Source of the DNA: Clavelina lepadiformis
Taxonomy: Eukaryota > Chordata > Ascidiacea > Aplousobranchia > Clavelinidae
NCBI RefSeq assembly: GCF_947623445.1
Contig: NC_135241.1
Location: 4,466,501 to 4,530,500 of the forward strand
Direction of reading: 5' to 3'
DNA: 64,000 bases
Notes under the pieces: model-generated
Databases searched by the model: none
Seen by the model: only the letters and a program-made list of their open reading frames with translations
Told to the model about the DNA's origin: nothing
Made by a program: the position numbers and the translations under genes
Shown here: positions 39,001 through 64,000 of the stretch, piece after piece
Numbering within the stretch: position 1 is the stretch's first letter
Layout: each line of letters opens with the position of its first letter

Positions 39001-40247
39001 TCGGCATATTTTCCTACTCATAAGCATGTGTGGAAAACACTTTACAAATTGAATTATTTTTTCCGTGTGTTTTCTGTTAAAACGAAAATGATTTTTATGC
39101 AAAAAAACGTAAATTCTAAGACGTTTAACGATTAGTTTTACTACACGTCATTAAACAGACTTGTATACGGGCAATTGTAGATGGCTCGATACAATGTTCA
39201 GCTTTCCAATTAATTGAATTTGCGGTTTTAAAGTACATGGAGCTTTATATTCCATGATAAAATTCATTGTGCTCTCGCTTTTCATAGGTTTGATTGGTCC
39301 TACAGCTTCCCGCAATGGCTATACAAAGAAGCGTAATCTCTTTCTCCACTATCTCTATACAATTCAGCACCGGCAGCGTGCTATCTCATTCCTTATGAAC
39401 TCAAACATTGTCTAAAGAACGAGCGAATTTCTTCGCAACAAGATTTGCATTCACATTTATAATAACTTTCCTTCTGTCGTGGTCAATAAAAAATGCTCCA
39501 GTGAATACAATTTGTTTACTATTATAAACGTTTATCCTTCGTAGTCCCCCCCGGAGAAAACGGATTTGTTATTTTGCAAGCATAATGTTTAGCAATTAAC
39601 AATTTGCGTTGATTGCAAGTTACGAGGAAAACATTACGCCAGGAAATTAGTCCAAGTGGTACAGTAATGCGAATTCAATAACCAAACAACGGAAGGTTTT
39701 AGTTGTGTTTAATTATGGTAATGACGATTCTTACCATGCCATGCAAAGCTAACATATTTTACGTCTCTCATGCACGGTGCTGTTATGTAAGTGTAGTTGT
39801 TATAGCACTTCATCAATTCCAATTCTGTGTTTCCTCTAAGTAGCACTTAATGGCTGTGATGCCCATCTACAAGCCCGACATTACCGCAGTGGACAAGGGT
39901 ATAAATGATACAGCTGATGGTACTATGCATTGATAACTATTAATGAGCGAAACTTATAAATCCTTACTTAGATTACAATTTTGTGCCGGTGTTACGGTAC
40001 AACGTTGAACGTGTCATCAAATATGGACTCGACATTTGAATAAGTTTGATCGTCGAGCGACGTACAGCGGTCGTGTTTGACCATCAGAACGAGACATTGC
40101 AAATGAGATATTGTCTCCTACATATTCCTAGAGTCTAATTGCTTGCCTGGGGCAATAGATAACGAGCTATTTAAGCAGCGTAGATATTTGTGGGCGATGC
40201 ACTTTTGCAAGAGGTAGGAAGATGTTGTAACCAGAGGCCAGTGCTCA
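36049..40247. other. intergenic, nothing recognised
   Basis: This separates the divergent connexin (minus) and plakin-repeat (plus) genes and should hold both 5' flanks. Two short plus-strand frames near 38.5-39.0 kb are low-complexity translations without splice or codon support. No repeat family was recognised. Confidence 0.5.
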
Positions 40248-40308: not shown

Positions 40309-43300
40309 ATGAATCCGGCGAGCATCGCTTTCATTGTGATTTTCGCTGTACTTTTTCCAACCATCGCTGTCTTGGTTGGATACTTGTTGTATAGACATGC
40401 CACTACAAGTAAGTATTTATGTTTTTTTGTATGTAGGCTACCAAAATTTGTTGCAAACGCTTTTGATCACTGATTTATGTGTCAGTTTATTCCAAGTTTT
40501 GTTTTAAGTATCATTTAAACTTATTACTACAAAACATTGAACTTATTGCTCCCACATAACAGGGCGTGTGTTCTTTCTTTGTTTATTGAGATGTATTTGA
40601 AAAATGTTAACTGAAGTGTTTTAGTTCGAAGTGTTTCATATAAAGAAAATTACCACTATAAGCTTAATTGACAGTTTCAGTCCGTCATTACCCGTTTGAA
40701 TAGCAATTATGGTTGTTAATTAATAGGTTTTTACTGTATTTCACATTGTAAGCATATAATATGCTACAAGTAGTTAACTCATCGGGAGTTTTTGTGTTTA
40801 TTGAAACTTATAGTTACGAAAATCATACACGAAAACAACAGAGAAATCGATTTTGTAGTCGGATAATTTTGAGCGTCCAAGTTTTATTCAAAGTGGTTTT
40901 AATACGCACGCCTACATTTTAAACACTTTTTGAGTAGGTACCAATCTTTTATTTGAAGCTTTATCACATTTCCATATTTGCACAACTGTTTGCATAATTA
41001 TCTTAGACTTGAAAGAAATGGACTGAATGAATTTTTGTTATAAATCACGTACCGCCTTGATAAATATCACAAACTTTGCAAAACGCATATGTCGAACAAT
41101 TTGCCCCGGGCATCTAAACTTTCTAAAGAAAATGTCACCCGGATTGTATTTTGACTATGGCGCCTACAGTTTGGTTTTAAGCTGAGTACTCAGTATGAAA
41201 TAACCTCTTAAATAACGTCATGACGCCCACTATTTATTACCTATTATTTCAACTCTAGAAAAGGAAAAAGACCTTGAACCAGATGGAAACGTTGCAACAA
41301 CTTACGATGAAACAGGGGAGACCAATGGCCACCTTCTCATTGAAAACAAGGTCGGCTTCGATTTTGAAAAATGCAAAATCTGAAACTTACTAAAGAGGAA
41401 TCTTATCATTATAATTAGTAAACCATAAATTAAAGATTACATAAAAGAAATATGAACAGGGAGTGACAATACAGCATTCTCACTTATTCAAATGTACAAC
41501 TGCTGTTTGCTTTGTTGATCTGCCGAAGTGTGCTAGCCGTGATGTGACAATAATTTTAATGTCTGGCAATAGGAACAAAAAAAATGACGACATAACTATA
41601 GCTCATCAAAATAAACAAAATCACACATCAAAGTAATGTCAAATCCTCTTTAAAGTTATTTGGTATCGGTATGATTCACAATGCCTACGCGAGACATTGT
41701 CTAATGTTACCTTGTTATTTTAGGATGCCCCGATTCACGAGGTCGCACCCGACTCTTCGTCAACGTCGTCTGGTAATTGATTTCAATTTTTTATGACATC
41801 ATATCGTTTGGTTCATTCTCGTGTGATCAACACTTCGTCCTCAAATTAAGTGTTTATATTTGCATTGCGCATTCCTCCAGATTTGAAAAAACGGCCAATT
41901 GATGAAGATTCGATCGTTATTGATGTCGAAGAAGAACAACCCCTTCACAATGAACCCCCACCAACTGTCATTGAAGTAGGTTGCATCCGTAGAAGCAATG
42001 TATGATTGAAATACTGACACTAAAGTTAAAATGACGTTTATGTGCTTTTGAAATCATAACATGCTACAGTGATGAACACGCTCAATACACAAAACTAGCT
42101 CTTGGCGTATATTTTAAAGTATCTTCAAACACGATAATTGATCTGCATTACCAGATGGATAAAGCAGCTGACGAAGACCCAGTCATTCCGGTCATTGTTG
42201 TGCCGGACAAGGAAGAACCTCTTAAAGTTGAAGAAAAGTCAACATTCAGCTCTGAAGATGAAGCTCCTGTTGAAGATTCAAAAAGTTCAAGCTCGGAAGG
42301 TGACCCTGATGTACCTGTAGTTGTTTCAGTTGAAAAAGAAAGCTCAAGTTCTGAAATTGAAACTGAAGTACCCGTGGTTGTTGCAGTTGAAAGAAAGACT
42401 TCAACGTCAAGTTCTGGAAGTGAAGCTGAAGTGACTATGATTGTATCAGAAGAAAAGAAGAGCTCAAGTTCAAGTTCTGAGAGTGAGCCTGAAACATCTG
42501 TGGTTATTCCAGTCGAGACAAAGAGTTCAAGCTCAAGTTCTGAAACTGAAACTGAAACTGAAATTCCAGAAGTTGGTCCAGCTGATAAGAAAAGCTCAAG
42601 TTCTAGTTCTGAATCTGAAATTTCAAAAGTTGTTTCAGCTGAAAAGAAGATTTCGACTTCAAGTTCAAGTTCGAGTTCAAGTTCTGAGAGTGAACTTGAT
42701 GTACCGCTGGTGATCCCGTTGGATAAACAGAGCTCAAGCTCTACTGAAGCCATTAAGCTGAAGCCTGTAGTTGCTCCGAGAAGGAAAAAAGCTCAAGTTA
42801 AGAAGACGAAGAGCTCTTCCAGCTCTTCTGATGATTCTGTCGAAAACTTTGTCACAGTAACGTCTACCACAATCATCGATGGTCCTAACGCTGAAGACGA
42901 AAAGAGAAAGGTCACAAAAATGACGATGCAAAAGCATTCGGCGACAGCCTCATCAGCCTCAAGTGATCAGGAAATATTTAATCACAAGAAGAAGACTCAT
43001 CGGAAGAAGATTATTCACAACATTGAGGAAGTGGAGATCATTGAAGAGCATGAAGTGAATCGCAAGCACAAGAAGATCATACGAAGGGGAGTGGGAGACA
43101 GTTCGTCCTCCACCACAAGTTCTTCAGAAGACGAAGACAGAGGCCGAGTTAAGACAAAAAAGAAGAAAGTGAAAAAGAAAAAGAAAGAAATTCCACCTAG
43201 TTCCTCCTCCGAATCGTCTTCCTCTACTTCATCAGGAGAAGAACCAGTAAAGGAGCCGGATGACACCAAATACTCCACGCAATATTTTTACGATGTCACG

Positions 43301-46300
43301 ACCAAAGATGACGAAAAGCACATAACCAGAACCATCATTGAGAAGCAGTTATCGCCAACCAGAGATGTTACGAAACACCACGTTTATCGAGAAGTTGTAA
43401 CAGAGGATAAACTAAAAGGTTATTTAGATAACTGTTGTGTTAATGATTTATGCTTGGATTACTTTTTATGCCTGTAGAAGGGAGATGTTGCACTTGTTAA
43501 GCAATGTCATTGTGCTTCTATAGTTCTATTGTAGGAATGTATTTAACAAAGGCACAATATTAAACGCCGTTTTATGCTTTGCTAGATGTAGAAATAGGAA
43601 TCAAAGAATCATCTTCGTCATCGTCTGAGAGTGATGTAGAAGTTAGACTGAGAAGCGAGAAAGAAATCCATGTTGTTTCTCCACCGAAAGTCCCTCCAAT
43701 GTTTGCAGCAACAGTCACAACTGAAGAGGATGGCACACCAAGTAATAAACTTTATAATAAATGGCGACAACATTGTGATTAATTCACCAAATAAAGGCGT
43801 GGTATTGCGCGTTTTTTACTTGAGGTAGTTTATAACTTTATTTAAAAAAGCAAGAATCTGCACCTATAAAATGGCTTCGTTGAACTTTGTAGAGGTTCAG
43901 ACCAGTTCTTCGTCTTCTTCAGAGTCGGATGTAGAAACACGAGTCCGGAGCCAGCAGGAGATCACTCTTCAGCCTGTTCGGAGGAAAACAACTTTGACAG
44001 GTAGGTTCCCGTTTATCGGTCACCTGAATCACTGAATTTTGTTTTCGGAGAGTTCATGCACGTCAATTAGCGATAACTAACCAACAATTATCGCTAGTCA
44101 TCTTTGTTGCCTTGTCATGATGGTGACGTCGGATAATTGTCATTCTTTGATGCAATAATTTTATCTCTAAATTAAATATTTAAAGCCACAATGTTCATGT
44201 TGTTTTGATTATTAGAAGCTGTTTGTGTAAAGGTTTTATAATTAAATTTATGTTACAGAGGAGCAGAAAATGTCGTCTTCTTCATCGTCATCTTCAGAAG
44301 AAGAGGAAGAGATTAGATTAAAGAGTCACAAAGACATCATCTTGAAAAAGAAAGGTAACCTATATTGTATATTGATATAATTATTTTGCCGTGAAAGTAT
44401 AAACTTTTTCATGTTATTTACTCATCTGATCCCATGCAGCGACCATTCTCTAATTGAACATTTTTTTCCTACGAAAATATCTCTTACAACTTTGTTCTAA
44501 TTTCGGACCAGATGTATTAGCATTATTATTTGTTATTGCCTGAAAACTGAAACAAAGCACATGTAGAACGCATCTGAAGAATATGCCAGCCAACCCGAAA
44601 TATTATTTACAGGCACAATGAAATGTACAGCAGAATTTAAAGTTTAATTGAATTTCAGACGACTCTGATATGTTTATAGAGCAAGAGCTTCCTGTTACAT
44701 CATCTTCATCATCATCATCAGATGAAGAGCCTGCAGTTCCACTTCCTCCTTTAAAATCGTCGCCATCAGTGGAAGAAAAAACTCTTGTAACGGAAGAGGT
44801 GATTATGCGAATAAGTTTGCTTATCGAACTACAGAAATTCTTTAGTATATTTTAATTAGTTATACATGAAATTTCATCATATGCGGCAGACGCAGGTTTA
44901 CAAACGCAGTTACATCCATGCATAACACGGTAGTGGGTGGTGCAATAAAAAGAAAAAATTTTTAGAATTATCACGTTGCAACCTTTTTGGGTTGCTAGCA
45001 GTTGTACTTAAAATGTTGTCGAAAACTGTTTCTAACATACAACAACAGACCATATAATAGTAATTGCTCATTGCAAGAGTTTGTTAATCTTAGAAGTAAC
45101 ACAAACACTTCCTTACGCAATCAAATGTGTCCGTCAAGTGGTCGTGTTTGCGTAAGATTGGATCACTACAATAACTTGTTCAGAATGGCAGATACATGAT
45201 TGTAGCATTGTACGAGATCTACGTAAGACGTCTAACGTTATCCTGACCTTAACATAAATTTCTGCTTTAGACAAGCTTGAACTTTGCTTGAATGTTAAAT
45301 TTCTTTAGAACAAAGTTTCTGGCAATCATCAAATTGTATTCGTGTTATATACAACGTTTTTCTTTAGCTTGTTATGTGCTGAAGTACAACTGTAGTTTAC
45401 ACTTGAACATGATGATCAGTTTTTTTGCAAGTGATCACCTTGAATATAAGTTTTGGTCCATACCACTAAATCATATTTTGTGAGCATGATAATGTTATTA
45501 TATAATGGGGTCCAGATGGATTGATTAAATTACAAACATTGTTCAAATCCTTTGTTTGCATGGTTAAGGTGATAACTCCGAGAGATTCCAGAATCGTAAA
45601 AGAATCGAAGTTGGATCAAGAAAGTGACACCGCTACAACCATCACCACCGAGGAGATTATTGTAACTACAACTACAAGAGAAAAAAAGTAAGATAGTTTC
45701 CATGTACAAACCTCGAAAATAAACACCACTCATAGCAAAAAACATAGCTTCGGGCTTCACATGTCTAACACCGTTTGAGCATATAAATAAGTGTGAATTC
45801 ACAATACACAAACTGTGACGTATGAAGCTGAACTATCGGATGAGATGAAAGTCAGTGTTTGACCTTTTTGATATGACTAATAATAATTAATTATATATTG
45901 TAGTTCGCTACAGCTAAGTATGGTACATATACACATTATACATTAATCACATGCTATATATACTTTATATGCATGTATGTATGTTCAAATTTGAATTTCA
46001 TTATAAACCTACCTATGTTTCTTTTGCGGTGACAAACAAATGTTGTTCACATCTTTACCCAATAATCAGAATGTATTCACGTATGCGCAGCAAGTTAACT
46101 GAATAATTTTAACAGGAAATCCCGGAAGGACATCAGGTTTACATCCGGATGGAAGAAGCAAGTCTCCCTGGAGAACCTCCTCAATGCAGGAGTGGTGACA
46201 GAATCAACCATCCAGGAACTGGAAGCAGGTGCTCTTGCAGTTGAACATTTCGAAGTTGCTCCTCTTTTATGCTGGTAAATTGTATCGATGCAGTTTCAGG

Positions 46301-49300
46301 CAAAATTTAACGCTTCCTCTAGGCACAATCCAGGAAAAAGATGTAGAAGCATCTCTTCATCTTTATCTGGTCGGAAATGAACCGATCGCCGGATTACTGA
46401 TGTCAGACACAGGAGAGAAGATTTCGATCTATGATGCCTGGAAAAAAGGGCTGATAAGAAGGGGTAAGAATTTTGCTTGAATAACGACTTTACACAAGAA
46501 CGCAAGCTCGGGCGAATGTGATATTGTTAATGGCGGAGTTAACTGACTTGCTCCTACCTCAATCCCAAAGTTTTAATGATTCTAACCAAGGAAAAATAAT
46601 CCTAACTGCACAGTTGTGACGTGATGTCTTTACTTCCATTTAAAAAAAATTCCAAAGCTAACCCAAATTTTTAAACTTATTTTATAATATCGAGATTATC
46701 AACTAGCTTTATTTTTTGCGGTGCTGTCTACTGTTTAGTCGATATGTGGTACATGTAGGTTTATGTACGCCGCCCTATCCCGGCTATTCCATAGCCAATG
46801 CCGAACGTTGGACGATACTGTATTGAAAACACTCATGACTTGTTTGGTGAAATTGCATTGGACAATTGCCGTGTGCAATTCTACTCTTTTTAAAGTTGGT
46901 TTAATGACCACAAGAGTGATTTGCTACACGTTATAAACAGAACTACAACGATGCGATATGACTTCACCAATGGTTCAGATAGCTCTGACATTTCGCCAGT
47001 AGACGCTTCAGGCTAAATTCCGACATTCTTTCAATAGTAAAACTGTGATATGTCAACATACATTGAACGGATAGCTTTTAACCTTCAGCTGAAAACGTAT
47101 TAAAACTTAATAAAGATGTCTTTATGAGTTTGTGTTTGTTGTAATACATTTGACATATTTCAGACATTTTTCATGAACAATGGGGACAAGAAATGCTTTA
47201 TGTAACGTTGTTTTTATTTATTACTGTAAATCGTTCTTTAAGCGCTTCAAGTTAACCAAAAGATTTACAGTTGCAGCAGCTTACTTACCAAGACAAGGGA
47301 ATGAGTTAATTTCGTTTGTTTTTATTCAGGTACGTCAATCAGTTTGCTCGAAGCTCAAGCTGCTACTGGGAGAATAATCGATCCCAAAACGGCGGACCGC
47401 ATGTCCGTGAACGAAGCGACTCAACAAAGACTGATCGACAGACAATTTGAAGCCGTCCTGGTGAGGTATGATACGTTGTGAAGCACAAAGTAGTCACGGT
47501 CTAAATGTAACATTACATTAAAGAGAACCTTTAAAGCGAATCTGTTTCAGCTGTAATATTAACACGCGATGTTGTCAGTCACAACTTGTAATGATCTTTA
47601 CACAATTGTAACATCATTTCTTTAAACAGAGCTGAACGCGCTGTGTACGGTTACACGACTAGACTCAGCAGTGAAACTCTCTCGCTATTTGAGGCGATGA
47701 AGAGGGGATTGGTCATCCAGAATCACGGAGTCCGACTTCTGGAAGCGCAGATTGCAACTGGAGGTGACATGAGATGAATAAGTGGTTGACGTTTTTGTTT
47801 CTGTTGATCAAAACGCATCAACGTAAATGCCTTTGAAAAACCGTGGATTTTGGGAAAATTGAGCGACATAACCCCGTTGTTTCTATTTATTGCCGCCGTG
47901 CTAATCCACTCAAAAGCACCTGTAAAAAGAAATCTTGAACCTTGCTATCTCTGTTTGATAACATGGTGCAAGATTGTTGTAAGATTGTTATTGCCGGTTT
48001 GGAATATTTCATGAGAAACGCCTAAACTTTCTTCTATCGCGCATTTGTTATTTAGATCCCTTCATTATCTAGGTTTGTTTGTGTTAATGCTGGTTTTGCC
48101 AATAGTTTTGCTTTGAAATATCCAGGAATTGTCGATCCAAACGCCAACCATAGGCTACCGGTAGAGGTCGCATATGAGCGAGGACTATTCGATAAAAGGC
48201 TGCACGATATTCTTGAAGATCCGTCTGATGACACGCGGGGATTTTTTGATCCGAACACTCAAGAAAATCTCACTTACCTCGAACTTATGGAGAGGTTGTA
48301 ACCACGCATTTTAATTTGTTTTTGCTTCGTATTTGTGTTTAGGTTTATACTTGTGTAAATGTTGACATGGCCCCAGGGTGTAAAATTGCTTTTGAGGGTT
48401 GGTCATTATTTTTTCCAATTTTGTCCGCTTTTGTCCGCTCCGCTCAATTTTGTAACTTATAGACCATTTGCTCGCGTTGTTTGATTCAATTTACAATACT
48501 CGACATTATTTTACGTCACAGATGCGTCATAGATAAAGATACCGGACTTAGGTTGCTTCCCTTCCAAGGCAAACGAAAAAAATCGGCGACCAAAGTTTCG
48601 AGGGTTGGTTATGTTTACGAAAAAACCTGTACAATTTAAAAGTTTGTTTAACCAAGATGGGATAAGTGTTATTGTTGTTATTGTTTTATACCGATTGCGT
48701 CCAGGTCGTCTTTGAATCTGCCAACAAAAAGCAAGTCTTCCTACAAGACATCCTTGACGCCGAATTAGTTGATTTGAAAACAGCCACGAAGTACGATGAC
48801 GGGCAGATGACGTCAGAGGAGGTTAGCGCCATGGTTGCGCAATTGAAGGTGTACGTGGACGGGACAATGCCAATTGCTGGGGTCATAAACTCGATTACAG
48901 GTAACAAAAGCAGCCCTTGAACGTTCTAAACAATCTATAGCAACCGACTCTGCCTCCGAGAAAAAAACTTGTTATTGCTTAGGAGAAAAAATGAGCATTC
49001 TTGAGGCTTGCCGAAGCAACCTGATTCGAAAGGGGACTGCTTTTGAATTGCTGGAAGCTCAAGCTGCTTGTGGAAAAATAATCGATGTGCAATCAGGCAA
49101 AGCGGTTTCCATAGAAACTGCGCTACGAACAGGCGTCATCGACAGGTATAAGGGGGATGAATAGTGCACTTGAAAACATGTTTCCTATCTCTTTGTTTTC
49201 ACATCTTCGCATCAATATGACTTATAAGTTTAGCTTGACATGGATCTGAAAAGTATAATTTTTGTGCCGTTATCTATTTTAAACTAATGATTCTGTTTAT

Positions 49301-51989
49301 TGGTTATCAGTTCCGAAATACAGTTGCAAAGTCACAATAAAACACACAACATTGTGCCACAGTGCTGCAATTTGTTATTAAATTTTCCGAAAACCTGTTT
49401 ATTGTTTTTCAGCGAATACGAAGATGTGGCCACCCGGGCCAATCGCGCCGTGATTGGATATCGAGAACCATTCAAGCGTGATGTATTGTCACTCTGCGAA
49501 GCTATGACGCGCCACCTTGTGGTAAAACGTCATGCAATTCGGTACGTAGTACATTGCATTGAAACGTGAAAAGAAATTTTCGACTGAAGAAAGTTTTAGA
49601 CGTGAAACGTTCCTTGGGTTGTGGTTTCAAAGTTACTTGATACATCAACCAATGTTAAAAGCCATAGAAAGTACAACAACAGAATTCATTTAAATCGATC
49701 ACTTGCATTACTAGTTGTTATCGACATATTATCTCCTTGCAGCTTGCTCGAGGCACAGATAGCCACAGGTGGCATAATAGACCTGAGGAGTCCTGTTCGA
49801 ATCAGTGTGAGCGTGGCACAAAAACGGAATCTCTTGGACTTGAACTTGGCGAAAAAATTGGAAAAGCGCGAAACGGCCAGTTACTTTGACCCAGTCACGG
49901 GCGAAAATCTCAACTATTCTGAACTGATGGGAAGGTGGGTTTCTTTTTTTGCTACTTACATGAAACCCAGGAGTTCTTATAGAAGTATTTAAACATCTCA
50001 ATAAACGTGGTGTTACACGGTTAAGGCGGTAACCCAAGGAGGGAGTGTTGAAGTGTATTTCAACTATAAAGAGTCTGATTTAAACACCGAGCCCAGTTTT
50101 GAAATTACGTCACGCGACACCTGAAGGCTCATCCACGGATTCATGTTTAAGAACTCCTTTATGTACCCAAAAATATTCATGCGGGTAAAACGCAGCTCGG
50201 AACAATGTGTGGTGAACCGAAACGAGTTGGTTTGTTTGCACATAGAGAGCGTTTCCAGCCCCCGTTGTGGATCGAAGTTTTACGTATTATCGCATAGTTA
50301 GATAACTTTGTCTATGGTTAAAAAGATTTTGCAATCTTTGTTGAAAAACGCGTGGGCAGTGTAACTACAAAATTAGGCCTCTATCCAAATGTAACCAACA
50401 CAAGAGTGCATTAACGATCCTGCTTATCGACCAAGCGAATAACTCTGACACATCGCTCTTGTAAATGCCTTGGTGCTGTTGCGTGCAACAAAGTGTATTG
50501 GATGAAAGGATTATTGTAACCAAAATAATTACACTTAAAAATTTTCAGAAACAAGGTGGTCACTAATTTTACGTGGTAATATGACGCCTAAAATATTTAC
50601 TATGTTTATGATTTTTGGGTCCATCCATTTTGTGTGAATCCATCACTAAGTTTAGCTTCAAACAATGAGTTTAAAAGCCTTCTAAGTTTTACATAGCCAT
50701 CACGACTTTTTATTGATTTGTTCATATTTTGCAGATGCGTGCTGGACAAGGACTCCAATCTTCTCTTCCTGATGGTGGAGGGAGGAACAGTGACTCAGAA
50801 CGTGAGGCCGTTTGAACCGGAACCAGATTCGATGAAAATTCGAGAAAAAGCGGCCGCCAAGTTAACGACTGAGGTTAACTGCAACTTATGTCAGATTAAA
50901 TGTGACCAACGCTATGAATTAGGCCATTTTGTCGTTGCTTGGTGTTTTAATTCAAAAAACTTTACAATTTCCAAAGCGTTGTCTGTATACTTAAAATGAA
51001 TCTTGGTTCGGTAGAGATAATCCGCAAATTGCTGCGAGGTATTCTTTGAGTTCGCTTTGAAAATAAGCTCAGCTTGCCTGGGAAATGTCACATTCAAGTA
51101 AGAATGTTGCATTGCGCCGTCTGTATATGTAAGGGGTAATTGCCTTGCCCAATACCAGCCTAGTCAAAACAAATCTGCGTGCAGTCAAACTCCTACAATT
51201 TTACGCCATGTGTTAAGAATATATTCTTTGTGACGTGTTTTGTACGTCATAATACCAGAGAGCGGTAAAGCCTGACATTTTTTATGACTATAAAATTGCC
51301 TTCGGAAAAAATCAGTGGTGTGTGCGGCAAGTTGCACCCATTCATGTTATTTAAAGTTAAGTCACCCGTGTTATATTTCTACCGATAGTTTCTCTTGTGT
51401 TTTCCCGTGAAAATATTTCTCTTATCTTCTATGTGGGCAGATTCTAGTGTATACTATTTCGTATGCTTCGTACTAATCTTGATATTATTATTCTCATTGA
51501 CACTAGTATTAAGTCGGTAGACTTTAAAAATTAAGGTCATTTTTCTTAATGTAACCTTGTGCCGTGAATTTAGGTTGTCCAGAGTAAGTCTAAATCTAAA
51601 CGACGAACTTCTTCCCGAACTGACCGACCAGGTATTGGTATTGTCTATACTTGCCTATATTTAGTTTTACAGATTAAGTTTGAATTCCTGCAAACGTTTC
51701 AAAAAAAAATTTGTTTTTAAAAGATTTTCATGCAGTTGTTAACAATAATTCTTTTGTGATACGTTTGGTTTACCTTTAAATATTTCACGTCTGGTACCTA
51801 GCATCCCCGACTTCGAGACCTAGCAGTCCACCGGCTATACTGAGCCGGCGAGTGGTGATTGTTGACCCGAATACCGGTAACGAACTGACGGTCCAGGAGG
51901 CTCTTGAATTCCAACTCATTGATGCAGAGACGGCCAGGCAACTTCTTGAGCAGGAGGGCGATTTTGAGGAAGGGAACACGAGCCCATAG
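40309..51989 (+). CDS. membrane-anchored, Ser/Glu-rich plakin-repeat protein, 23 coding exons (gene A)
   Basis: Exons: 40309-40408, 41259-41350, 41724-41772, 41881-41975, 42155-43418, 43586-43741, 43893-44000, 44259-44354, 44659-44798, 45569-45687, 46116-46228, 46323-46463, 47330-47465, 47630-47763, 48126-48294, 48522-48603, 48705-48900, 48983-49145, 49413-49541, 49743-49934, 50735-50873, 51574-51631, 51802-51989. Phases chain to 4,059 nt (1,352 aa). Residues 1-30 form a single membrane segment ([23 protein letters not shown]) with no clear cleavable signal. Residues about 113-700 are Ser runs alternating with acidic and basic blocks. Plakin modules lie at about 741-998 and 999-1271, with the diagnostic [30 protein letters not shown] and LTYLELM motifs. 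The C-terminus (1290-1352) has a Ser/Arg stretch, then [20 protein letters not shown], resembling the plakin linker domain. Plakin repeats bind intermediate filaments; membrane tethering of such filaments is inferred. No actin-binding, spectrin or rod domains are present. Exons 10 and 22 are the least certain. Confidence 0.87.
42155..43418 (+). repeat. coding repeat: Ser-run/acidic/Val-rich units in gene A exon 5
   Basis: This 1,264-nt exon encodes about ten irregular units of roughly 18-25 residues, each a Ser run plus E/D residues followed by a hydrophobic P-x-V-V/I stretch and K (for example [20 protein letters not shown]). It then continues into [14 protein letters not shown] basic blocks. 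The underlying DNA is a repeated (TCA/AGT/TCT)n with GAA/ACT triplets, a setting prone to slippage. Confidence 0.8.
43586..44354 (+). repeat. three tandemly related small exons in gene A
   Basis: Exons 43586-43741, 43893-44000 and 44259-44354 share phase 1-1 boundaries. They encode the same plan: [40 protein letters not shown] and [20 protein letters not shown], each followed by hydrophobic and basic residues. Exon 44659-44798 starts similarly with a Ser run. The pattern indicates exon duplication. Confidence 0.8.
46116..48603 (+). other. plakin-repeat module 1 of gene A (six exons)
   Basis: About 258 residues, from [12 protein letters not shown] through [15 protein letters not shown]. It contains several 38-residue plectin-type repeats with GEPIAGLL-like, LLEAQ-ATG-IIDP and [14 protein letters not shown] elements. 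The matching region of the downstream gene (55969-56885) has no introns, whereas this one is cut by five. Confidence 0.88.
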
Positions 51990-52627: not shown

Positions 52628-55600
52628 ATGTATTCCCTTTATTTTAACTCGCTGGTAATTTGCTGTATTAGCCAAGTAGTTCAGGCGCAGGAATGCACGA
52701 ACAGGACCCTAACAGCGGCAATCCTCGCGAGCATATTTGCCACGATCGGAGTGGCGATAGTTGTTTTTTTAATTCTTTACTGTTGCCTGAAGAAGCGAAA
52801 AAGTAAGTTTAGTTGCATTTGTTGTTTTATGTTGATCCTATTTGTATGATTGTAAGTAAAACAACGCGTTAATTTTTTAACGTCCACCAGGGAACCAAAT
52901 GAAGTTAAACTGCAGTCTAGCAACGCGTGTTAGCGTCTAAACGCTAATGGCAACTAAAACTTTAGCTAAGGTAATAACGAAAGCTTTTCTACGGTAATTG
53001 CGGTTTCAATTAATAAATTTTAAATGAAGAGCAAAGTTTATTTCATTTTAAACTCATGTTAAATGATTGACACGTTATGTCAAAAAAAACCCACAAGACT
53101 CTCCGTCCTAATTTATTTCCAAGTGTTGTTTACTTGCGTCAAGACGTAGGCTAAATGGACGGCAGTTAGAACGAATTCAACTTCTCAATTAAAGTGGTGT
53201 TATCGGAACGTGTAAACCGATATGTGTGGGTTACTGATAAATCCATCAGCTTTCTAACTGATTCTCTATTCATCTCTTTGAAAGACCTAATGCGTTTGCA
53301 ATCGCCCCTAATCAAGTCAGTTTTGATGATAATGTTGGTATTATTAAAACTTGAAGCTGCTGTTCAACTAATATTATACAAGATACTGATTTTAAAGGCA
53401 TATTTAGGTGTTATCGCTTTTCGCAAAGTCGATCAAGTATGCAAAAGTAATAAAAACATACTTCTGGCTTCGATTCTTTGGTACACCGAGAATACAATTA
53501 TACATTCTATTTGCATATATCATCAGCATTGTGTTCGACCGCTTAACCGATATACCTAATTTCCTTTCAGAAAAGAATGAACTCAACACAACCGTTTCTG
53601 GTTACGATAATCCCCTGGTCATAGCGGATCAAGGTGTGGTTACGTCATACCTAATATTATTGTAACGTTTTGTTTAAAAGGCTGCAATATATTTGCCAAC
53701 GTAATAGGGTTTGGTCACTACGGAACAGTGATTTATTTGTAGGAGAAAAGACCGAACTCAAAGATGTTGTTACGGTTACGGATGGCCCAGTTAAGGGATT
53801 TCAATCGAACGAGGTTGGTTGGTTGGTATTGATATGGGAGCTTTTCGGCTTTTCGGCTTGCCTTTAAAGTTGATAATAATATAACGAACCTCTGATAAGA
53901 TTTATAAGTCTTATTTTTAATACTTGTATCCGGCATGTCACGTATACATACGGTCAGTCACGTATCACGTCAGTTGATGCTCGCCTGCGCGGTCAGTCAC
54001 ACAGTCACTTGTACATCGTTGTGTATATAAAAAAATAAGAAACAAAATGCGAATATTAACTTTTAGAGACGTTAATTTTCAACCCAGTGCTCAATTATTT
54101 GCCTAAATGTTAAGAAAATTAGTGCCAGCGGGTGCTTTTATTTTTCGTTGTTTTTTTCATATCCAAGGATCTGCTTTTCAGGTTGTCACAGTTCTGTTGG
54201 ACCAAAAGCAACCTGCCACAAATGGCTTTGACGTCATGAAAGGTGATCTGGGTGGAATTTTCATAGCACACGTGAAAGAGGATGGGCCAGCTTATAATAA
54301 ACTTTCGAAAGGTGACGATACGCATTCAGCAAAATTATCCTAATTTTACCTTGTTGCATCATCATTCTTAAAGTAGTACAATAGAAAGTTGCCCTGAACA
54401 CTTTGATTTGCATAATGTATACTTCACCTGTTTGTGTTGTCTTGCGTAGGTGACGTCATTGAAAGTGTAACTGTCTTCTTCGATGATATCAATTTTGAAG
54501 ACGCGGTCATGTTGCTTAGCAACGCTGCTCCTTATAAAGTCGCTGTAACGGTTTCAAAAATGGTAAAAAATTGCTAATAACATATGACACTGTGACGATG
54601 CAATAAATAGTTGTAAATGTAACGTTAGTAACCTGTAACGTTAGTAACTAGTTGTAACGTTGTAACTAGCAAAGTATTGTTCGCGTACGTCGGTTAAGTG
54701 CTAGAGAGTGGACACAGTTGTTTACAGCTTTGACCAGCTGTTTCGTCACCTTCTAAGGCGAGGAAGTTTGTTTCTCGCCTCAACCGGTTGCGTTCATTGG
54801 TTTAGTTCTGTTTCTGTTAAATGCAAGTTTGCAGTGAAGTAGTTTTTAGCAATGAACCCGTTAGAGAGTCTTTGTGTTAAAATGTTGTGTTGCTTTAAGA
54901 GTTCGAGTGGATCACCAAATCATCAAAATGGAACTTACGCAGGTTGGTGTTTACTGAAACGCATTCATGCGTCAACAACTATACACTTATACGATATGAA
55001 TACAAGCTACCAGATTATCTTGTTCTAACAGATGTTACAGCAAAGCAACCGTCAATTGCAAACAGTCCAAAACTACAAAATGTAAGGTCAGTCTAAGAAA
55101 ACGAAGAAAATTTTTTTCCTATGCTGCTTAGGATTCTTTCTTTCTTTAAATACTGGTACATGGCAGAACTAATGTTTTGTGGATGTTAGTTTGTGGTTTG
55201 TGTTATCTGAGACTGCATCTATTTAGTACTGAATACTGATATGTCTGATGTATTACTTTGCGGTAGTTTCAAATGGACATAAAATGCTAGTTACGTATAC
55301 GTTAAAAGCCTGCCGGCGGTGGATGGATGTAATTTAATGAAATGTGACGTCATGCTCTTCACAAAGCGGTTTCTAAAGATCTATCAATAATCATTGTATT
55401 TTCAGATCTTCACAAGAAGAAGCAAAACCATTGCCTGTCGTGGTCAAACTCGCCGAAGAATCGGTATATCTTTCGCCGCCTGATACGGTTCAAACAAAAT
55501 ATTCAACTGATGTTTCCACCCCAGACGCAAGAGACAAAGCTATTTCCGGTGATGCTTTATCGACCACGTCATCGAATACGTCATCGTGTAGCAGTGAAGA

Positions 55601-56885
55601 AGTTGCATACATAACACCAACGCTAAGTCAGGAAAAAATAGCTTCCCCCTTTCTCGTTGATGATGATAAAGTTAAAAATTCTGAAGCTTCGGAAAAACTT
55701 TTCGAAGAAACTGTAACAACAGCGCCACTAAGCGACGATATGTATCAAGCCCAGATGTCTCCCAATGGCACTAAAAGATCATCAACTTACTCTTGTTCCA
55801 GCAGCGATTCCAGCGACAGTTTACAAGAAACTCCATCTCAAAACATTTTACCTCCAGGTTTGGCCATGTGCTTGCTTGATTCAGTTACTATCATTTGTGC
55901 TTCCAACAATACAATATACACATACTATATATGCTGTATACTTAATATTACTTGTGCGTTGTTTACAGAAAACAATGTTGTTCTAGAAGAAAAGGAATCA
56001 GACAACGGAGAAGGTCCAAACTCGGATGATGATGAAAAAGAAAAATCTTCAACTGTGAAGTCAAAACTTGAGGAGATCAATTCCGTTTCAGATACTCCTG
56101 AAATGCCCCGTAGACGAAAACGAGAGGACATTGTTTTCCAATCAAGCTGGAGGAAACCAGTAAAGCTTGAAGACCTCATCGCAGCTAGATTGATCACGGA
56201 TCAAACCGCGGAAGCGTTGGAGAGCGGAGAGTTGGAGGAAAGCAAAGTGGCTGAGAATCTGCGTCAGCACTTGAGAGGAGACGAACCCATCGCTGGACTT
56301 CTGCTGATGGAAACAGGAGAAAAAATGTCGCTTTATGACGCAACAAAGCAGAACATGGTTAGGCGAGGAACTGTCCTTAGTTTGCTGGAAGCTCAAGCTG
56401 CCACCGGGAGTATTATTGATCCTTACACTGGAGAGAGGATGAGTGTAGACGAAGCGAAAGCAAGAGGACTAGTGGACTCGCAGTTGGGAGTGATGTTATT
56501 GCGAGCTGAGAGAGCGGCACTCGGGTTCAAAAGTAAAGTCCAAGATAAACCTCTGTCCTTATTTGAAGCGATGAAGCGCAAGCTGGTGGTCGAAAACCAC
56601 GGAATTCGTCTCTTGGAAGCCCAAATTGCTACAGGAGGCATCATCGATCCTCAAGCTAATCACAGGCTCCCGGTAGATGTCGCGTTCGAGCGTGGTTTGT
56701 TCGACGAACGTCTGAACAAGATCTTGGAAGACTCATCGGATGACACAAAGGGATTTTTCGATCCAAACACGAACGAGAATCTGACTTACTTGGAACTTAT
56801 GAAGAGATGCGTAATCGACAAAGATACTTCCCTGAGACTGCTTCCTCTTTTCAAAACAAAACAACCGAGAGGATACTGGAAGTGA
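52628..56885 (+). CDS. single-pass membrane protein with periaxin/AHNAK-type PDZ and plakin-repeat module, 9 coding exons (gene B)
   Basis: Exons: 52628-52802, 53571-53633, 53743-53813, 54182-54311, 54450-54562, 54900-54942, 55032-55086, 55406-55857, 55969-56885. Phases chain to 2,019 nt (672 aa). Residues 1-20 look like a signal peptide ending VVQA. A very short ectodomain (QECTNRT, one N-glycosylation site) precedes a membrane segment at about 30-53 and CCLKKRK. Residues about 104-183 form a PDZ domain: GDLGGIFIAHVKEDGPA as the carboxylate-loop/first half, then GDVIESVTVFFDDINFEDAV and LLSNAAPYKVAVTV, a pattern close to periaxin and AHNAK PDZ domains. Ser/Thr-rich sequence follows, then one plakin module (about 420-672) with [39 protein letters not shown] and [18 protein letters not shown]. 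The module is very close to module 1 of the upstream gene, so the two are tandem paralogues in the plakin part. Exon 6 (43 nt) is the least certain. Confidence 0.85.
53743..54562 (+). other. PDZ-domain exons of gene B (periaxin/AHNAK type)
   Basis: Exons 53743-53813, 54182-54311 and 54450-54562. The frame runs VVTVLLDQKQ, GGIFIAHVKEDGPAY, then GDVIESVTVFFDDINFEDAV with an APYKV ending. Generic PDZ domains have GDxIxxVNG at this place; here the FF(D/E)(N/D)(I/F) replacement is the periaxin/AHNAK variant. The upstream paralogue has no equivalent exons. Confidence 0.8.
54605..54672 (+). repeat. short imperfect tandem repeat in gene B intron 5
   Basis: Several near-copies of GTAACGTTAGTAAC(CT) and GTTGTAACTAG in a row, about 45 bp after the last PDZ exon. 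No function is suggested. Confidence 0.6.
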
Positions 56886-58441
56886 ATCAGCCATGACAAT
56901 CTGTTGTACATAAGCTTATACTGAGCATATGAGTCTTCCACTTTTTTCACTTCCCTATCTAAAACTTAACCCTAACTTATATGGCGGATAAACAAATGAA
57001 GCTATTTGGTAACTTACAATAGTTATTTTACTTATGTTACTGCAAACTTGATTAACACTAAATATAACCAGTTAAACACTTGTAGTTTTGTTTAAATATT
57101 CTTGAGCAATGCTGCTTGTAAAACGGAATAAATTGCCATTGTAGCGACCTACGCTTATGACAAATAGGATGAATGCAGTTTTGTGTCGAGGTTGCAGTTT
57201 CAAGAAAAAAAAATATGGCGCCAGATCTAGACAAGGAGCCAAGTCACATTCAAGCGCTAAGGACGCCCAAATAGTTTTGGTTTTGGCATGTATTTGAGGA
57301 AGAAAGTTTTAAGGCTTGAAATAAGATCGCTGCTCATGCCGCTTTTTCCTTAGCACAAGCCTACCTTTTGTTAGGGTTATTGCGATCATGTAGCAATGGA
57401 ATCGTAATAAGCCGACTGATTTGCCTATATAGTTATTCAACCGAGCGGAGTAGCCACCAAGCGTGGCAACACAGCGGTACTTCATTTATTTGTTAGCACG
57501 TTTATAAAAGTCTTCAACAAAAACTTTGCCATTGAAGTTCACAGGACACAGGACAGAATTTGCCAATCACGCTGAAAATTTTTTTTTCATCCATTCTTGT
57601 TTTTTTGACGTGCTGCTTTTTACTTTTTCGTTTACCTTGTTTTTAAGTGCGGTTGGTGTAGCCTGCCATCCCACTGAGTCGGATACTTATGACGCCGGGT
57701 GGATTGACAAACATTTCTGGCCAGCGTTGGCTTAGACTATACTGGTGAAAGGGACAAACCTTTAAATGAAAAAGCCAATGACGACCGATGCAAGCTGATG
57801 TTATAGTCGAACAAAAACAAAAGCAATAGATCTTAAACATGTAATGCTTTTGCACTAATGCACCACACGTGACCATGTGAACAAATTGTAGGCAACTGAG
57901 GATGTATCTGTTTTAGATACAAATTCCAGACGGCTTCACCTAAAGCAATGTAGTTGATTTTGCTTGATTTAATCACATGACAAAGTTGTAGTTTGCTGTT
58001 ATGCAACATGTTGTGTTACAAATTTCTGAAATTCCTTTTTGTCCTGTTTACCGTTGATTTACCTTGTTAGATCCGTGTAAACAAGTTCTCAACCTATTAA
58101 AGCAAATAATAAAAATATTAAACATGTTAAAAATATCATCATCTGCGAGAAGAGTTGCCGGAGCGTTTTTGTTTTTGAAGAATACTGGTGGTTGACAAAA
58201 AAAGCAACCTATCATCGAAGATACCGTAGAGGTTTTGTTTGATGCAAATAAATAGTCGTAAGTAGTTAAATCGTTAACTTTCACGTTTGTGCTCGTTTCA
58301 TGTGAGCCCTTTCAAACTTTCACAATTACGAGGTTGCTGAGTGGAAAGCTGACAAGGTTTCCAACCAACATTCATTCGTTTGTCGGGCTTAAAAGGATAT
58401 CTTAGCTGGAGCAAAGACTGACCACTAGTGTTAATACAGAG
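56886..58441. other. intergenic; 3' end of gene B on the left
   Basis: Contains the probable polyadenylation signal of gene B at 57127-57132. Nothing else is recognised. A short plus-strand frame near 57.5 kb has no splice or codon support. Confidence 0.5.
57127..57132 (+). other. polyadenylation signal of gene B
   Basis: AATAAA about 240 nt after the TGA at 56883-56885; the first canonical one downstream. Confidence 0.5.
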
Positions 58442-59084
58442 ATGTATTTCGACGAGGAAAGCTGCGCATCATCCTTGGACAGTTCATCAGTCGCTTCAAG
58501 TGAAAACCCTAGACGATTGGCTGGTGAGATGTTTTGCATGTTTTGGTAGCAGTAAGGGTCAAATCTGTTCAGATAAATTTTGTTAAAAGTTAATCTTCTT
58601 TTTCGAACTTTTAGGCTGTTCAAGGAAGTCGTGCCTAATTTGGTGGTCGTTATTTGTCTTCAGCGCAATGTTGGCGTCAGGATTTATTATGTGTGCATTT
58701 GGCGGCGGATTCTCAGAATACTATTATACAACAATAGGAATGATTCTCTTGGTTGCATCTGTCTTGCCTCTTTTGACAGCTTGTGTGCCATTATTGTTGC
58801 GGTGTATGAAGCACAGGCTGATCCCGAGAAGTACACCTGCACAGACGTTTGTCCTTACTGACATAAACCGAACAGAGCCGGTTTATTCCCGTCATGTGTT
58901 GCCAGTCGCCGAGTATTATGATTCCCGGTATTACTCAAGAAGTACACAACAGAATAGTGCCCAGTCCACAAGATTTCCCGTGGAATCGACGCCAACTAAC
59001 TTGTGGCAAAACTGCTCGTTTCAAGAGAACTGCACCCCGCCCACCTACCAGGAAGTAATGGCAGCTGAAACCTCGCAGAAGTGA
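58442..59084 (+). CDS. two-pass membrane protein with PPxY motif, unrecognised family, 2 exons (183 aa)
   Basis: Exons 58442-58523 and 58615-59084 with a 91-bp GT-AG intron; phases fit. The N-terminal cytoplasmic-type segment is Ser/acidic (DEESCASSLDSSSVASSE). Two hydrophobic segments at about 34-55 and 66-88 are separated by a short Gly/Tyr loop (GGGFSEYYYTT), and a long polar tail ends near PPTYQEV (PPxY at 169-172), a class of motif bound by WW domains, for example of Nedd4-type ubiquitin ligases. The TACAG just before the ATG could be a trans-splice acceptor, as many ascidian genes use a spliced leader, but that is not established here. No named family is recognised. Confidence 0.75.
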
Positions 59085-60704: not shown

Positions 60705-61063
60705 TTGTAATCAACGTGTTATATCGTAAAGTTAATAACCATCACTTATGTTGACAAAAGTTTCTAAAATTAATGAATCTGGCTTAACGTAAAAATTTGA
60801 TGTAGATACCTTCACTGGTTGCGAGGAAGATTTGAGCATAGGAAACTTAGGTTTTATACAGGACAGCGGTGTATACTTTAGACGAGTGTCACAGGATAAG
60901 ACCAAGCGTAAAGAGACACTGTGTTCAACTAAGTTTTGGAGATGTTATGGATAAATTAGATTGTTAACGAATAATCAATTGCTGCCATATGTTTGTATTT
61001 GTAACTTTTACAGTTGAACGTCTAATTTTTTTTTGAAGTCTAAGCTGTCTCTGTTTGTAAACA
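60705..61063. other. 5' flank of the Toll-like receptor gene
   Basis: About 360 bp with no coding signal. It should contain the promoter and 5' UTR; no TATA box was convincing. Confidence 0.45.
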
Positions 61064-64000
61064 ATGAGAAGTTATATTTTTACCTTGAAGATCATAGTTG
61101 GCTTTCTGCAAATTTCTTCTGTAGAACTTATTACTTCAAACGATCCTTGTGATCCTCTGACTCACAACGTAACGTTACGCCAAATTTGCCATAACTGGTA
61201 TGGCTTCGAGGTTTTCCTGTCACTAATGGACTATCCAAAATGGACAGAAGCCGGCTTAAACGTCATTAGATGTGACTTTAGAGGAGTCACTAAATTTCCT
61301 TTGTCTGTATCTAAAGACGTACAGATTTTAGATCTGACGGGTAATTTCATTCATCACTACAGAAAGCAGGATTTGACAGGCTATGAAAAGTTGGAAGTTC
61401 TATTGCTGGGAGCAAACTGCCTAAGAGTTATTCGACTCGGACTTCCATACTGTAACTCGATAGTAGTAATTGAAAGGGACGCGTTTAGAGCTTTAATTAA
61501 TTTAAAGTATCTCGACCTAAGAGGAAATGTCTTAGAAATATTTCCTTTTAGGCTGCCGCCTTCTCTTAACGTCTTGTACTTGTCATTCTCAGGAATCGAA
61601 AGGTTCAATGAAACTGATTTTGTTTCGCTGAAAAATCTTTCCTTCGTTTTCATGAAAAACCTTTGCTTGGGAAATCCGCCTATTTTTCAAATCTTTACTT
61701 CCATAGCTGCCAAATGTTTTCACGCTCAAAACAATCTCATTGGATTGGACTTATCGCAGAACTATTTTCGTAAAATACCCAGAGATATTTTGAGAAGCAC
61801 TCTATTGTATTTCAACATGAGCTTTAATTACGTTGACGCCTTGCTTGAAGACGACTTTGTGAACTCTTCTAATCTACGTCAGCTGGGATTGTCAAGGTTA
61901 ACGTTCCTACAGCAGCCTATCCACCTTAACAAGTTTGCTTTAAAACCTTTGAAAGAATTGGAAAGATTGTACATGGCTTTTAGCAGAATTGCTTTCATAC
62001 CGGAAGGGTTTTTCTCGTACAACAAAAAGTTAACGCATTTGGATCTAACTGGAAATTGCCTGTGGAAGTTTGTAGAAGACCCTTTCTTTTTGCCGTTGGA
62101 ACATTTGATAGAATTAAATTTCGGTTTCAATAAGTTTTGTCTATTTCAAGGCCCTGTCCGGTCTGATGAAGCCCGAACCAACCACACTTTGCATTTGAGC
62201 AGTGTTTACTCTAAAATGAAAAACTTGTCGGTGCTGTCGTTCGGTGCTTCGCACCATTTTCAGGCTTTTCCATCCTACCAAACCCATTTAAACTTTCACG
62301 CAGTTGGTGCTCTGAGCCTATCAGCATTAGAAGGTTTGCCTCATCTTTCTAGAATTGAGCTGTCACATTGCAGAATAAAACTTTTTGACGCGAATGCTTT
62401 CAACTATTTAACTAGTCTTGGCTCAGTAATTTTTTTGTCGTACAACAGTATAGGAATGAAAAATACCGATGACAATTCCAAAGCAGATGATAGTAATGGA
62501 AATTTTGGCGGAAACTTTGAAAAGGAATTAGAGAAATTTTTTGATAAGAGTGCACACCTCGATGACCATTTGGCGCAGATCACGTCAAACAGGGTTGAAG
62601 CCAATAAACAAACAAACAAACACGTGGAAAAACTTGGATCATCAAGAATGTGACCTTGGTTCAGTTCTTGACTTTTCGTCAAATTACATACTAAAAATAA
62701 AAACGTATCTAAACAGGGCGACATGTCGTTTGTCTTCTCGACATGTCGTTTAATTCAATTGAACGTGTCGCTAAGGACGACTTGCTGAGTGTCAAGAATC
62801 TTTGTTACTTGGATTTGCGTTCAAACCCAATAAAAAACATTCACCCAAACGCTTTTGCCACTTTAACATCTGCAAACGTTGAAGCTAAACAGCCCTAAAA
62901 TTGTAAGCAAGTCGTTACTATTTCTCTCACAATTTCAGCATCCTTTGAAGCTTGAATACCGAGGCAGCGGAACTTCCCTGTTTTCTATTCTTGTTTTGAG
63001 CGCAAAGTTGACCGCAGCCGAAATTTATGATGTTGATTTTTCGGACAATATCATGTCGTTTGAAGACGAATTACTGCTCACAAAAATTTTCCGGATTTTT
63101 CCTGCCGCTCGGAAGATTTCCTTGCGAAAATGCGGAATCTCAAACCCAAGGATTTTACTAAGAAATTCGCAAGTAACCAGCATTGACCTGAGCGAAAATA
63201 AGTTGCCAGAGTTGCCCATGGAAACCCTGTGGGTAATGCGCGATTTGCTTGCCCTGTCCATATATTCGAACAAAATAAGTCAGCTGGACCGCCGTATGTT
63301 CGACTCAGTGCCACGCCTGACCTATCTCGACCTTTCGAACAACGAGATCAGTTACATTTGCCGAGATTTTTTCGCGGCAAACGCCAGCAATCTCAGAACT
63401 CTCTTTTTGAGAAACAACTACATATCTCAGATAACTAGCGACATATTTCCTATGAATTTTTTGGAGCACATCGAATTTCTTGATATCAGGTTGAACTCGA
63501 TCTCATGCAGTTGCGAACTGACCACAATTTTTGGTAAATGGCTTACGAAAGCGCCCTATACAATCGTACAACGTGTAGGGATCCTTCCTAAATGTACACC
63601 GTTAATCGACAGCAATTATGGTGGCTGCGTGAAGTGCTTTTCTTCAGGTTTATTTGCTGATCAGTCACTACTCAGTTATTCTGCCAACATCACCTGCCAA
63701 AGCGACTTTTATTTTAATATTTGCGTCAGTTTTTCGTCTTTTATCATCGCCTTTATTGTAGCGGGACTAGTCTTCACAAGCAAGCGTTGGAAACTGTGGT
63801 TAGCCAGTTACGCCACGAAAGCAATCATGTTTTCTGAAAAAAGTTATGACGACGACGACAACGACGACGACGACGATAGTTTTGCCTTCCACGCCTGTGT
63901 GGTTTATGACAAGGAAAATAGGAAAGTAGGAGATTGGGTAGACCAACACATGATTCCAAATCTAACGAACTGTCCACCGTTTTTTAAGATGACCGTTAAT
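61064..64000 (+). CDS. Toll-like receptor (LRR ectodomain, TM, start of TIR); frame interrupted, 3' end outside window
   Basis: Pattern-recognition receptor of the Toll family. The first open frame (61064-62653, 529 codons) starts with a signal-peptide-like MRSYIFTLKIIVGFLQISS and carries many leucine-rich repeats (LDLTGN, LDLRGN, LDLSQNYF, LDLTGNCL). A second open frame (about 62870 to the window end, no stop) continues with LRRs (IDLSENKL, LDLSNNEI), an LRR C-terminal cap with CSCEL and two further Cys-containing stretches, a membrane segment (FNICVSFSSFIIAFIVAGLVF), an Asp run, and the beginning of a TIR domain with a divergent box 1 (FAFHACVVYD). Both frames are in the same register. Between them (about 62600-62940) LRR coding moves through the other two frames, so the gene is either frame-broken, contains a short intron there, or has sequence errors. 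Ascidian TLRs are few and often intron-poor. The TIR domain is completed outside the window. Confidence 0.85.
62600..62939 (+). other. frame-shifting LRR segment or candidate intron inside the Toll-like receptor
   Basis: Relative to the flanking frame, LDFSSNYILKIKTYLNR is read one base on, LDMSFNSIERVAKDDLL and CYLDLRSNPIKNIHPNAF two bases on, and LQTLKLNSPKIVSKSLLF back in the original register. The three +1 steps sum to zero. A duplicated CGACATGTCGTTT (62720 and 62740) marks one step. A strong 3' splice-site-like sequence, TTTCTCTCACAATTTCAG, ends at 62938, and in-frame GT codons upstream (for example after AACAGG near 62593) would give a phase-0 intron. Confidence 0.6.
63848..63880 (+). 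repeat. GAC/GAT triplet run encoding poly-Asp before the TIR domain
   Basis: About ten GAC/AAC/GAT codons between the membrane segment and the TIR start, giving an acidic juxtamembrane linker. Confidence 0.75.

Follow-up and report, generated by a model that had tools for sequence, protein, structure and literature searches.

A candidate membrane-anchored gene of the ascidian Clavelina lepadiformis that would join a periaxin/AHNAK2-type PDZ domain to a desmoplakin-like plakin module

Plakin modules are known from the ends of large linkers in the cytoplasm, and it takes several partners to connect these linkers to the membrane. One locus of the ascidian Clavelina lepadiformis raises the question of whether such a module can be part of a membrane protein itself: a transmembrane (TM) segment, a PDZ domain and a plakin module are encoded there one behind the other on the plus strand, and they could belong to a single gene or to two neighbours. 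The locus (52628-56885) lies in a stretch of 64,000 nucleotides, positions 4,466,501 to 4,530,500 of contig NC_135241.1 (assembly GCF_947623445.1), which we call the window and whose numbering is used for all plain coordinates below. A first-pass annotation, made without database searches, had read nine exons here as a short adaptor between membrane PDZ assemblies and intermediate filaments. On re-analysis, we consider it probable that a single gene encodes one TM-PDZ-plakin protein, which would require a transcript that joins all nine exons.

The nine exons could be rebuilt as proposed. They chain on the plus strand with GT-AG at every border and an open frame of 672 residues without an internal stop, in the phases (entry>exit) 0>1, 1>1, 1>0, 0>1, 1>0, 0>1, 1>2, 2>1 and 1>stop, the stop codon ending at 56885. 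Exon 1 (52628-52802, 0>1) encodes a signal peptide, called by eye, a short ectodomain (about 10 residues, among them a single Cys and an NRT sequon) and one strongly hydrophobic segment (Kyte-Doolittle 2.93 over 19 residues). The exon also carries a CCLKKRK stop-transfer sequence, and because CCLKKRKKK follows the hydrophobic segment, the remainder of the protein would lie in the cytoplasm. Exons 2 (53571-53633, 1>1) and 3 (53743-53813, 1>0) supply a predicted cytoplasmic tail, with GYDNP in exon 2, and exon 3 runs into what comparison with periaxin suggests is the first strand of the PDZ domain. The N-terminal half of that domain is encoded by exon 4 (54182-54311, 0>1) and the C-terminal half by exon 5 (54450-54562, 1>0; VFFDDINFEDAVMLLSNAAPYKVAV). 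They are followed by a bridging exon of 43 nucleotides with an AAG acceptor (exon 6, 54900-54942, 0>1; SSSGSPNHQNGTYA), by exon 7 (55032-55086, 1>2) and by exon 8 (55406-55857, 2>1), which encodes an acidic Ser-rich linker to which exons 6 and 7 also contribute. Exon 9 (55969-56885) continues the acidic linker, passes through a basic PRRRKR stretch and encodes the plakin module (about 56121-56882) up to the stop. An AATAAA lies about 240 nucleotides 3' of that stop, at 57127-57132, in a region where the hexamer occurs 1.14 times per kb. Submitted to Pfam as a whole, the spliced protein returns the Plectin and PDZ families and otherwise only two weak matches put down to chance, and no plakin domain (spectrin repeats with SH3) was found in it. 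The long repetitive disordered tail typical of periaxin and AHNAK is not present; the Ser-rich linker and the plakin module stand in its place.

The nature of the PDZ domain is best read from solved structures. Among PDB chains, it matches the PDZ domains of periaxin (4cmz, 47.8 bits, 1.1e-11) and AHNAK2 (4cn0, 41.2 bits, 1.3e-9), and the third-best match, to ZO-1, falls to 20 bits (6.2e-3). Identity in the aligned stretch is 41% to periaxin and 36% to AHNAK2, with VFF, an acidic EDA helix and PYKV as common features. The Pfam family PF00595 scores 23.3 bits against a cut-off of 23.2 on the excised domain and 18.7 bits, below the cut-off, in the whole protein; the assignment as a PDZ domain is firm because of the matches to the solved periaxin and AHNAK2 chains. 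The first-pass annotation had called the domain periaxin/AHNAK-like, and these matches bear it out: as far as sequence comparison can tell, the domain is of the periaxin/AHNAK2 type. In a local profile search of the window and five paralog stretches, the PDZ was found in this gene only (63 bits per half, the next match 6). Its two exons (0>1 and 1>0) form a symmetric phase 0-0 unit, which can enter a phase-0 intron with the frame intact, as exon shuffling would do. A structure predicted for exon 4 alone (43 residues) gave a lone helix with a predicted local distance difference test score (pLDDT) of 59 and was not used as evidence.

For the plakin module, PF00681 is found at 7.2e-46 on the last open frame and at 4.1e-45 on the spliced protein. 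Among solved structures, the module is closest to desmoplakin PRD-AB (5dzz) and PRD-B (1lm7, 1.3e-73), the matches to plectin, envoplakin and PRD-C being far weaker, at about 1e-30. It aligns with PRD-B over 235 of 253 residues, and 121 of 238 residues (51%) are identical. PRD-B modules, of which 1lm7 is one, have an extra N-terminal repeat-like motif (PMC4726743; papers are cited here for the parts of their text that were available), and the Clavelina module aligns through this extra stretch. In desmoplakin PRD-B, R2309, R2366 and R2385 are part of a charged groove (same source); all three are kept in the module, as is Gly2375, and the same three positions are Arg or Lys in the modules of three paralogs (C2p, C6a and C6b). 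At five groove positions described for envoplakin in the available text of PMC4782060, the module is basic at two and desmoplakin PRD-B at three. The module that the first-pass annotation had recognized is therefore complete and, by these comparisons, of the desmoplakin PRD-B type, and it looks able to hold intermediate filaments, whose genes are present in this genome (PF00038 matches 22 times, at six or more places). A predicted structure of the module alone had a pLDDT of 51, and its Foldseek matches to desmoplakin (5.1e-11) had TM-scores of 0.25 and so reflect sequence rather than fold; this was not taken as evidence.

The 209-Mb assembly contains at least 28 PF00681 matches at seven loci, and six plakin-repeat genes were modelled: the focal gene, W1, C2p, C6a, C6b and C3b. 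Five of the six, C2p being the exception, have a TM first exon that ends in phase 1 (0>1). In the paralogs these exons, assigned by position, order and phase, lie upstream on the same strand and join the next exons in phase without a stop; such exons are rare by chance, as 354,704 strand-bases from control stretches contained 7. A membrane plakin is no freak of this locus, since TM first exons precede four of the five paralogous plakin genes, and the focal gene looks like one of a set of plakin-repeat genes with a membrane anchor in this genome, and like the one that has a PDZ. TM-like phase-1 first exons were also seen outside the plakin gene models, at 39254, 53290 and 58668 of the window, at L019 3017 and, in sense coordinates, at C6a 15803 and 16144 and at C3a 19465.

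The upstream neighbour, W1 (40309-51989, plus strand), begins with a TM exon at 40309-40408 (0>1), followed by exons at 41259-41350 (1>0), 41724-41772 (0>1) and 41881-41975 (1>0) and by a Ser-rich exon from 42155; plakin modules lie at 46126-48594 and 48705-50771, with a further repeat near 51858, and the model leaves out 43474-46126. It reads as a larger, putatively membrane-anchored plakin-repeat gene with at least two modules and a further repeat. C2p, an inverted neighbour beyond the right end of the window (minus strand, about C2 4533597-4537262), encodes 1046 residues in three exons: a Cys-Cys, Lys-rich start exon (0>1), a 52-nucleotide exon (1>2) whose phases are those of exon 7 of the focal gene, and a large exon (2>) with a very long Ser-rich part and one plakin module. 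This module is 68% identical to that of the focal gene, and the two are sisters with support 89/90 in a tree of 11 modules, in which no branch reaches the tool's star and this pair is the only relation resolved. Upstream of C3b there are two TM exons; the more distant (L019 3017-3193, signal peptide and TM, 0>1) is set 3 kb further 5' than the other, resembles exon 1 of the focal gene (p ~0.01, block shuffling) and is either an alternative first exon of C3b or part of another gene. Three tRNA-Ala genes lie between these two exons. The seventh locus, C3a (minus strand, about C3 5047019-5055286), has many exons and stands outside the six-gene comparison; its upstream frames are helical and spectrin-like by eye, with no Pfam or PDB match above cut-off, and it may be an ordinary plakin.

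Whether the TM-PDZ part and the plakin part form one gene is decided between exons 5 and 7. Once the PDZ pair is set aside, the phases of the focal gene, 0>1, 1>1, 1>0 and 0>1, are identical to those of C6b and C3b, and this common pattern, with the PDZ as a symmetric insert, favours one gene. Splice scores were computed with a matrix built from 21 plakin introns of this genome (two of 23 were dropped, both C3a jumps between modules), and those of exons 1-5 are ordinary. Exon 6 is the sole bridge between exons 1-5 and the rest of the model. At 3.0, its acceptor outscores every other AG evaluated in 54603-55030, in the interval from exon 5 to exon 7, and falls within the range of the 21 sampled introns, six of which are clearly lower.

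Several observations weigh against a single gene with the kinships proposed here. The exon 6 acceptor is equalled by 16% of the AGs of the whole window, and its AAG has an A at position -3, which occurs in none of the 21 sampled introns (15 C, 6 T). Reading through the end of exon 5 reaches a stop after four codons. The Cys-Cys start and the phases of C2p (0>1, 1>2, 2>) parallel the focal gene read from the ATG at 54852, and neither a TM exon nor a PDZ was found in the 20 kb examined upstream of C2p. The tail exons of the focal gene are not significantly similar to those of its paralogs (p 0.10 to 0.90; low values among the 15 pairs compared were C6b-W1, 0.007, and C6b-C2p, 0.017), and exon 1 compared with the other paralogs' own TM exons gives p 0.05 to 0.56; because the sequences are not clearly alike, the kinship of the 5' parts rests on position and phase. 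Finally, when the periaxin PDZ is used to query this genome, a ZO-1-like PDZ comes first (31.7 bits) and a candidate PDZ on C7 second (24.5 bits), followed by exon 5 (21.9 bits), with exon 4 sixth (18.0 bits). The score of each half is lowered because the domain is split across two exons, whose bits sum to 39.9. We accordingly argue for kinship with periaxin from the focal PDZ outward, and make no claim that this PDZ is unique in the genome.

A first alternative is one gene with two promoters, which would produce the long TM-PDZ-plakin form as well as a short form starting at 54852, C2p having kept the short form only. The start in question (54852-54899) is an ATG in frame with exon 6 that gives a Cys-Cys start (MNPLESLCVKMLCCFK). 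Such a second promoter would reconcile the one-gene and the two-gene evidence, as it unites the phases of the paralogs, the in-frame Cys-Cys start and the structure of C2p; however, the codon usage of 54852-54899 does not separate from that of non-coding sequence (-0.25 over 16 codons). We regard this version as somewhat unlikely; its long form is counted within the single-gene explanation.

We hold it to be less likely still that two adjacent genes have been read as one. The first would encode a TM segment and a periaxin-type PDZ in 188 residues, ending in VKNC at the read-through end of exon 5 (54563-54577, with the stop TAA at 54575), and the second a protein with a plakin module, translated from ATG 54852 or 54882, whose Cys-Cys N terminus could be lipid-anchored, like its sister C2p. 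This reading draws on the absence of TM and PDZ exons in the stretch upstream of C2p, on the in-frame ATG with Cys-Cys 5' of exon 6 and on the AAG acceptor, as well as on an AATAAA at 54602, shortly after the alternative stop. The last of these we reject as a sign of a gene end because the hexamer is too common at the density given above, and three more introns or exons of the gene also contain it. Further points speak against two genes: all four paralogs apart from C2p have a TM first exon, exons 1-3 share their phases with C6b and C3b, a score of -0.6 is all that the acceptor just 5' of ATG 54852 reaches, and the Cys-Cys exon of C2p can equally be read, by eye, as a shortened exon 1 (FLILYCCLKKRK). 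That some of the small exons (2, 3, 6 and 7) are chance links, and that the real protein has another tail, is improbable: short exons carry little signal and seven candidate bridging exons are open in phase, but exon 3 supplies the first PDZ strand, the splice scores of exons 1-5 are as expected and exon 7 has a counterpart in C2p.

If the single gene is transcribed as modelled, its product would be a type I membrane protein of 672 residues with a signal peptide, a tiny ectodomain, one TM segment and the remainder in the cytoplasm, in the order short tail, periaxin/AHNAK2-type PDZ, Ser-rich acidic linker and one desmoplakin PRD-B-type module; a short form from 54852 may exist alongside. The PDZ exon pair would have been set into a phase-0 intron of a membrane-anchored plakin-repeat gene. 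An intertwined PDZ dimer is common to periaxin and AHNAK2 only, according to the available text of a review (PMC7072810), and the Clavelina domain may dimerise as the periaxin PDZ does, bringing two plakin modules side by side; perhaps it also takes hold of the terminus of a different membrane protein. According to the part of PMC4726743 cited above, one PRD by itself is a weak binder, and binding is stronger with several PRDs or with a PRD plus linker. With one module and nothing behind it, dimerisation through the PDZ would therefore matter, as the paired modules could grip a filament through their basic grooves. The linker would space the domains and may regulate them by phosphorylation, and filaments would be tied directly to the membrane without a chain of cadherin, plakoglobin and plakin. 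The protein would thus be likely to tether intermediate filaments to the membrane, with PDZ dimerisation doubling the tether. The adaptor idea of the first-pass annotation is partly supported, by the PDZ kinship, the complete module and the putative membrane plakins among the paralogs.

Three other genes of the window lie apart from this group. A leucine-rich repeat receptor (61061-64000, plus strand; LRR_8 at 1.1e-28 and 1.6e-13) runs off the window, and its 3' end reads by eye like a TM segment and the start of a TIR domain. A small gene at 58444-59084 (plus strand) encodes several hydrophobic segments and a PPTY tail; genes that look similar by eye lie upstream of C2p, at about L012 4651-7194. 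A C2H2 zinc-finger gene (zf-C2H2_4, 8e-9) occupies 5561-10569 on the minus strand.

We know of no described protein with the order TM-PDZ-plakin, and none was found in the literature searched, whose coverage is without most subscription papers. The domains themselves are known and their arrangement is new; the group of membrane plakins seems undescribed. A parallel in membrane attachment is dystonin, some isoforms of which have an N-terminal membrane segment supplied by the first exon (no account of them turned up in the literature searched). As in the focal gene, a plakin is there bound to the membrane by its first exon, but the dystonin isoforms are giant spectraplakins and have no PDZ. In periaxin and AHNAK2 the tail is long and disordered, and neither is known to have a TM segment. 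Their PDZ chains alone match the focal PDZ well in the PDB, whereas the focal gene has a TM segment before the PDZ and a plakin module behind it; the long disordered tail of periaxin is described in the available part of PMC7072810. Desmoplakin has a PRD-B module like that of the focal gene, N-terminal PR-like stretch and groove arginines included, but is a large cytoplasmic linker with a coiled coil and three PRDs, whereas the focal gene combines a single module, which no linker follows, with a TM segment and a PDZ. Epiplakin, like the focal gene, is a plakin-family protein without a plakin domain (PMC8782857), but it has many modules, no TM segment and no PDZ; the available text of that paper reports that epiplakin homologs were not found in Ciona or lamprey.

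The first-pass suggestion that the gene bears on the ancestry of plakins finds little to build on, as the module looks derived from an ordinary PRD-B and the module tree resolves only its pairing with C2p. A link to the history of periaxin and AHNAK is possible and rests on one PDZ. Vertebrates anchor their filaments through cadherin, plakoglobin, plakophilin and desmoplakin. The portion of PMC3013132 available describes desmosomal cadherins and plakophilins as vertebrate innovations. We tentatively propose, with some way to go before we would call it probable, that this animal has a group of at least five loci encoding short-circuit desmosome-like anchors, TM proteins with a plakin module of their own, one of which took up a dimerising PDZ of the periaxin/AHNAK type by exon shuffling. 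In animals that lack desmosomal cadherins, single small proteins would then tie intermediate filaments to the membrane, and the PDZ of the periaxin/AHNAK type would predate its vertebrate carriers. If this is true, a plakin module built into a membrane protein would make a minimal anchor for filaments and offer a simple reagent with which to study the hold of PRDs on filaments, the PDZ would serve as an outgroup for periaxin and AHNAK2, and filament anchoring in an invertebrate chordate would become directly testable.

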